Below are positions 33,979 through 35,307 of a stretch of DNA of 64,000 nt, in pieces. Numbering within the stretch: position 1 is the stretch's first letter; every line of letters starts with the position of its first letter. The notes under the pieces are model-generated. The model was not told the origin of the DNA. It worked only from the letters and a program-made list of their open reading frames with translations, and did not search any database. Both the position numbers and the translations under genes were made by a program. This DNA is from Halopiger xanaduensis SH-6 (GTDB lineage Archaea > Halobacteriota > Halobacteria > Halobacteriales > Natrialbaceae), in assembly GCF_000217715.1 (NCBI RefSeq), contig NC_015666.1, positions 880,270 to 944,269 of the forward strand, in the 5' to 3' direction.

Positions 33979-35307
33979 ATGTCCGACGACACACCGCACG
34001 ACGCCGAACCGACTTCGAACCAGTCCGCCGCAGCCGCCGACGGTGACTTCACCGTCACCCCCTACGCCGTCACTGGCGAAATCGACTACGACAAGCTCCT
34101 CGAGCGCTTCGGCGCCGACCCCCTCACCGACGAGCAGATCGCCCGGTTCCCCGACCACCCGATGCTCCGCCGGCGAACCTTCTACGCCGGCCGGGACGTC
34201 GATCGCTACCTCGAGGCCGCCGAAGCGGACGAGCCGCACGCGATCGTCACCGGCCGCGGCCCGTCGGGGCCGATGCACCTCGGGCACGTCCTGCCGCTGT
34301 ACCTCGCGAAGCGCTTCCAGCAGAAGACCGGCGCGACGGTCTACGTGCCGCTATCGGACGACGAGAAGTTTCTCGCGAAGGACCAGTCCTTCGCGTCGAT
34401 CGGCGAGCACACCCGCGACAACCTCCGCGACATCCTCGCGGTCGGCTTCGATCCCGAACGGACGCGGATCGCCGTCGACACGGCCGATGCGGACGTCGTC
34501 TACCCGATCGCGGTTCGGCTCGCGAAGCACCTTACGCCCGCGACCGTCGAGGCCGTCTACGGCGAGCAGGATACCGTCGGCCTGCAGTTCTATCCGGCCG
34601 TGCAGGCGACCCACCTCCTGCTGCCCCAACTCGTCGACGGTCGCCAGCCGACGCTGGTCCCCATCGCGGTCGATCAGGATCCCCACGTCCGGGTTTGTCG
34701 CGACGTGGCCGCCAAGGAGGCGCTGCCCGTCGCGAAGCCCGGCGCGCTGCTGGGCCGGTTCCTGCCGAGTCTCGAGGGGCCGGGAAAGATGAGTTCCTCC
34801 GGCGACGCGCCGTCGATCGGACTGACGGACGATCCGGAGACGATCGCCGAGACGATTCGAAATCACGCCTATACGGGCGGTCGATCGACGCTCGAGGAAC
34901 ACCGCGAGAAGGGCGGCGACCCGACCGTCGACGTCCTCTTCCAGTACCTGCGGTTCTTCTTCGAACCCGACGACGAGGCACTCGAGGGCATCGCCGAACG
35001 CTACCGGGCCGGCGAGTTGCTCAGCGGCGAGCTGAAGGAATTCGCGATCGAGCGCATTACGGACTTCCTCGAGACACACCAGCGGCGGCGGTCGGAACTG
35101 GGTGCTCTCGAGGCGGAACTCGAACCCTATCGGCTCACCGACGCGGAACGTCGGCGGGCGCTCGAGCGCATTACGGACTTCCTCGAGACACACCAGCGGC
35201 GGCGGTCGGAACTGGGTGCTCTCGAGGCGGAACTCGAACCCTATCGGCTCACCGACGCGGAACGTCGGCGGGCGCTCGAGCGGGCTGGCGTGCCGTCGCA
35301 GTTCTAA
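33979..35307 (+). CDS. trpS: Tryptophanyl-tRNA synthetase with a C-terminal 38-residue tandem duplication
   Basis: 442 aa, class I synthetase that charges tRNA-Trp. The HIGH-like motif is MHLGH at residues 99-103; the KMSKS-like motif is KMSSS at 270-274. The start follows an unconserved region; MSDDTPH is preferred. In the anticodon-binding C-terminal domain, residues 358-395 (starting ERITDFLETHQRRR) are repeated exactly as residues 396-433, and the DNA copies are identical. Without the extra copy the protein would be 404 aa. A nine-residue tail (ERAGVPSQF) follows. Function may be kept if the added helices pack outside the core. Confidence 0.95.
   Translation: MSDDTPHDAEPTSNQSAAAADGDFTVTPYAVTGEIDYDKLLERFGADPLTDEQIARFPDHPMLRRRTFYAGRDVDRYLEAAEADEPHAIVTGRGPSGPMHLGHVLPLYLAKRFQQKTGATVYVPLSDDEKFLAKDQSFASIGEHTRDNLRDILAVGFDPERTRIAVDTADADVVYPIAVRLAKHLTPATVEAVYGEQDTVGLQFYPAVQATHLLLPQLVDGRQPTLVPIAVDQDPHVRVCRDVAAKEALPVAKPGALLGRFLPSLEGPGKMSSSGDAPSIGLTDDPETIAETIRNHAYTGGRSTLEEHREKGGDPTVDVLFQYLRFFFEPDDEALEGIAERYRAGELLSGELKEFAIERITDFLETHQRRRSELGALEAELEPYRLTDAERRRALERITDFLETHQRRRSELGALEAELEPYRLTDAERRRALERAGVPSQF
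35048..35275. repeat. Perfect 114-bp tandem direct repeat inside trpS
   Basis: Two head-to-tail copies, 35048-35161 and 35162-35275, are identical in all 114 positions, so the reading frame is preserved (38 codons). A 7-bp TCGAGCG sequence begins each copy and recurs right after the second (35276-35282), the pattern expected from slippage or unequal exchange between short direct repeats. The complete identity suggests a recent event. Confidence 0.98.

Follow-up and report, generated by a model that had tools for sequence, protein, structure and literature searches.

A recent in-frame 114-bp tandem duplication close to the 3' terminus of a haloarchaeal trpS2 gene

The window, which is the whole stretch of 64,000 nucleotides analysed here, contains a gene for tryptophanyl-tRNA synthetase (TrpRS) in which a segment close to the 3' end is present twice in direct succession. 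The gene, trpS2, resides on a contig of 3,668,009 bases in a genome of 4,355,268 bases and four contigs. The features at this locus are as follows.

33979 to 35307, + strand: trpS2, archaeal/eukaryal-type tryptophanyl-tRNA synthetase of 442 amino acids (profiles, catalytic motifs, Foldseek)
35048 to 35161, + strand: copy 1 of the 114-bp duplication, residues 359-396 (self-comparison; native structural position in the model)
35162 to 35275, + strand: copy 2, identical, residues 397-434 (self-comparison; modelled as a C-terminal helical extension)
35048 to 35054, + strand: TCGAGCG, short homology at the left end (also in the single-copy sister)
35162 to 35168, + strand: TCGAGCG, junction of copy 1 and copy 2 (sequence)
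35276 to 35282, + strand: TCGAGCG, short homology at the right end (also in the single-copy sister)

The identification of the gene as trpS is borne out by its scores of 595.8 bits against the NCBIfam tryptophan--tRNA ligase profile NF008927 (cut-off 478) and 83.9 bits against the Pfam class I synthetase profile PF00579 (cut-off 21.1). Both catalytic signatures are intact. A HIGH-like MHLGH occupies residues 99-103 and a KMSKS-like GKMSSS occupies residues 269-274, and within them H100, G102, H103, G269 and K270 are invariant in 62 sequences. The predicted structure has the TrpRS fold, and its 50 best Foldseek hits are all TrpRS enzymes (best E-value 1.6e-32, TMt 0.84).

Self-comparison of the window reveals an exact run of 121 bp with a period of 114, at first-copy positions 35048-35168, so that the repeated tract extends to 35282. 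No other exact direct repeat of at least 22 bp occurs at periods of 20-399 in the 64-kb window, and Tandem Repeats Finder (TRF) assigns this tract a score of 471, compared to 50-84 for all other tracts in the window. The two copies lie head to tail, show no difference over 114 bp, and are followed by a 7-bp remnant. A perfect tandem copy of 121 bp is ruled out as a chance occurrence. The duplicated segment is found nowhere else in the genome except for a 22-base match on contig C2. The duplication keeps the reading frame and lengthens the protein by 38 residues; beyond the second copy only RAGVPSQF remains before the C-terminus. A first-pass annotation had described a perfect in-frame 114-bp tandem duplication at 35048-35282, with TCGAGCG at each junction. 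Self-comparison, TRF and translation of the open reading frame confirm this description, the motif is present at all three positions, and the span is now refined to the two copies listed above plus the remnant at 35276-35282. The proposed ancestral length of 404 amino acids, against 442 now, is likewise supported.

Perfect tandem repeats of smaller size are not unusual in this chromosome. A scan of 2.46 Mb (67% of the chromosome) for exact runs of at least 24 bp, with periods of at least 10 bp and runs no shorter than the period, recovers 19 runs, several of them overlapping, and 17 of these have periods divisible by three. All other perfect tandem duplications in the scanned sequence are shorter than that of trpS2; the second-longest exact run measures 91 bp and has a 27-bp unit. 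The notion that the genome is rich in such long duplications was rejected, as the other perfect runs in the 2.46 Mb reach at most 91 bp with units of at most 54 bp. The trpS2 duplication is the most extreme member of a common class and is ordinary in kind. Other perfect short tandem arrays occur on the same chromosome (G000:C3) at 1888319, 983279, 2367850-2368058, 870476 and 1655131, with units of 27, 27, 18 and 27, 25 and 15 bp.

Relatives of the gene were compared using one genome per species, which yielded 109 distinct TrpS2 sequences, 107 of which reach the duplicated region. When these sequences are searched with the 38-residue unit, two copies are present in the window gene alone. From the motif LLSGELK to the end of the protein there are 96 residues in the window gene, compared to 52-71 in the 103 other distinct sequences in which this motif was located. 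The first-pass annotation had also considered that all relatives might carry the same duplication with diverged copies; comparison shows that no relative has it, and a conserved repeat domain was rejected on the same observation. In the TrpS2 of one halobacterial metagenome-assembled genome (L094:3001-4152, the same sequence as L032), part of this C-terminal helix region is missing in frame, such that LLSGE is followed directly by GPLAEELPAYRLT; the loss is either genuine or due to misassembly. No literature specific to haloarchaeal TrpS2 or to a trpS2 duplication was found.

A sister species of the same genus (L004, 89% identity) is particularly informative with regard to the origin of the duplication. 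Its gene is single-copy and aligns to the window gene with one clean gap of 38 residues. The sister sequence reads GCGATCGAGCG at the left end and GCGCTCGAGCG at the right end, and TCGAGCG is present at both ends, 114 bp apart, with a further GCG match one base upstream. This heptamer is common in the window DNA (48 and 55 occurrences on the two strands of 64 kb), and the short homology alone is therefore moderate evidence. However, a 7-base match at a spacing of 114 is found at only 0.27% of window positions, and the homology at the ends thus favors misalignment between direct repeats. Because the single-copy sister carries the TCGAGCG pair at this exact spacing, there is good support for an origin of the second copy by slippage or a short-homology event on the terminal branch, in agreement with the recent slippage at a 7-bp repeat proposed in the first pass.

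The event is young, because no difference separates the two copies, whereas 21 of 114 sites distinguish the sister from copy 1. Over the whole gene, the sister and window sequences differ at 11.6% of sites and at 27% of fourfold sites. If change is clock-like and gene conversion is absent, a rough 95% upper bound on the age of the event is 0.14 of the time since the split (3/21).

The same identity of the copies, together with the absence of the duplication from all relatives examined, would also be seen if the cell had one copy and 114 bp had been wrongly duplicated during assembly. Such an artefact is unlikely. Ordinary reads can span a tract of approximately 235 bp. The junction coincides precisely with a short homology that the sister also has, and the reading frame is kept. 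Moreover, assemblers collapse repeats of this type more often than they expand them.

TrpS2 is not the only TrpRS in this organism. A second enzyme, TrpS1, is encoded on the same chromosome (C3:466099-467670), is 35-39% identical in two pieces, and has intact HIGH and KMSSS motifs. The family of haloarchaea to which this organism belongs commonly has two TrpRS genes, and the affected gene is the accessory one. A close TrpS2 match is absent from 46 of the 125 family genomes searched, and 39 of those 46 are at least 90% complete. It is the other TrpRS that occurs throughout the family, and for this reason the earlier description of the trpS2 product as an essential enzyme is unsupported. Taking its essentiality for granted was rejected in view of the second TrpRS, the absence of TrpS2 from near-complete family genomes, and plasmid-borne copies elsewhere. 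TrpS2 is probably an accessory TrpRS that is not essential as such.

TrpS2 relatives are also found on large plasmids in several haloarchaeal genera, and NZ_CP119991.1 and NZ_CP039140.1 are examples of plasmids with TrpS2-type tryptophan--tRNA ligase genes. In bacteria, an accessory synthetase is linked to resistance to the TrpRS inhibitor indolmycin. By analogy, the plasmid-borne TrpS2 enzymes, which are accessory synthetases, may be linked to inhibitor resistance. The genes for a phosphoesterase and a KH-domain protein that lie downstream of trpS2 also adjoin it in the sister and in many relatives. In the sister, the 5'-nucleotidase-like gene upstream of trpS2 is likewise found beside it. 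These conserved neighbors fit a chromosomal trpS2 that has been inherited vertically.

The structural consequences of the duplication were assessed with an AlphaFold2 model of the window protein, built with 61 relatives (mean pLDDT 88.8, pTM 0.84), and with a model of a single-copy relative. These are models of single chains without tRNA, and anticodon and dimer contacts are outside their reach. The C-terminal helices of the window protein are predicted at residues 349-372, 377-384, 388-422 and 426-435, with pLDDT values of 98 up to residue 390, 94-98 across copy 1 and about 80 across residues 401-440. In the model of a natural single-copy relative (L039), which is another protein than that of the window, helices at 359-382, 387-394 and 398-407 are followed by a low-confidence tail. 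Copy 1 is thus modelled in the native position and copy 2 as a C-terminal extension, with the native last helix fused in the prediction to the first helix of copy 2 to give the 35-residue helix 388-422. Comparison of the two predicted structures supports the earlier suggestion that the extra helical unit lies outside the core.

These observations are probably explained by a single recent slippage duplication on the terminal branch that left an active enzyme and was tolerated as a near-neutral change. The single-copy gene would have had two ancestral TCGAGCG sites 114 bp apart. Misalignment between them, by replication slippage or short-homology repair, would then have created the tandem duplication on the terminal branch of this species. 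The repeat length of 114 bp is a multiple of three and the frame continues across the junction, so that the enzyme became 38 residues longer. Copy 1 would continue the native helix and complete the native C-terminal domain, and copy 2 would form an extra helical tail ahead of the original last eight residues. The extended enzyme most likely retains its function, and the extension would be tolerated because the haloarchaeal C-terminus is variable past the family core and because TrpS1 is present.

There is a small chance that the duplication instead damages the enzyme and that trpS2 is beginning to decay, buffered by TrpS1. The presence of this second synthetase and the dispensability of TrpS2 across the family, where 39 near-complete genomes are missing it, are in keeping with decay. 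However, the frame is open, the catalytic motifs are intact, the native fold is predicted through residue 390 at high confidence, and no other lesion was found in trpS2. An adaptive role of the extra helix, such as a change in tRNA binding or dimer contacts, is far less probable. The predicted continuous helix of approximately 35 residues beside the C-terminal domain would suit such a role, but no second species has the duplication and the copies are undiverged, and consequently nothing points to selection for a new role. An older duplication whose copies have been homogenized by gene conversion is compatible with their identity but is the most improbable of these alternatives, because the gene is single-copy in the same-genus sister and in all other relatives, and the event is thereby confined to the terminal branch.

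A near-neutral slippage duplication in trpS2 opens no large question. It is a clean case of in-frame slippage that extends a synthetase at its end by one structural unit, and the state before duplication, with its short homology, is preserved in a sister species. If, as seems highly doubtful, a larger TrpRS has become fixed in this species and its duplicated terminal helix alters tRNA-Trp recognition or dimer behavior, the gene would offer a snapshot of a new synthetase C-terminal appendage being born.

The window protein resembles other haloarchaeal TrpS2 enzymes in its full family match, its catalytic motifs, its identity of approximately 80-90% to most TrpS2 proteins of the same family, and its common downstream neighbors. 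It differs from them in having 96 residues rather than 52-71 from LLSGELK on, because of the perfect 38-residue tandem repeat. It shares its fold with the TrpRS of Pyrococcus horikoshii (PDB 3jxe) and with the yeast and human enzymes (3kt3, 1r6t). The P. horikoshii and yeast enzymes are the closest solved structures by sequence, and their alignments end at window residues 377 and 394, respectively, both before copy 2. As in other tandem duplications mediated by short homology through replication slippage, the copies are identical and head to tail, and the 7-bp homology is present in an unduplicated relative. Only its length sets this duplication apart from the other perfect tandem repeats of the scanned chromosome.
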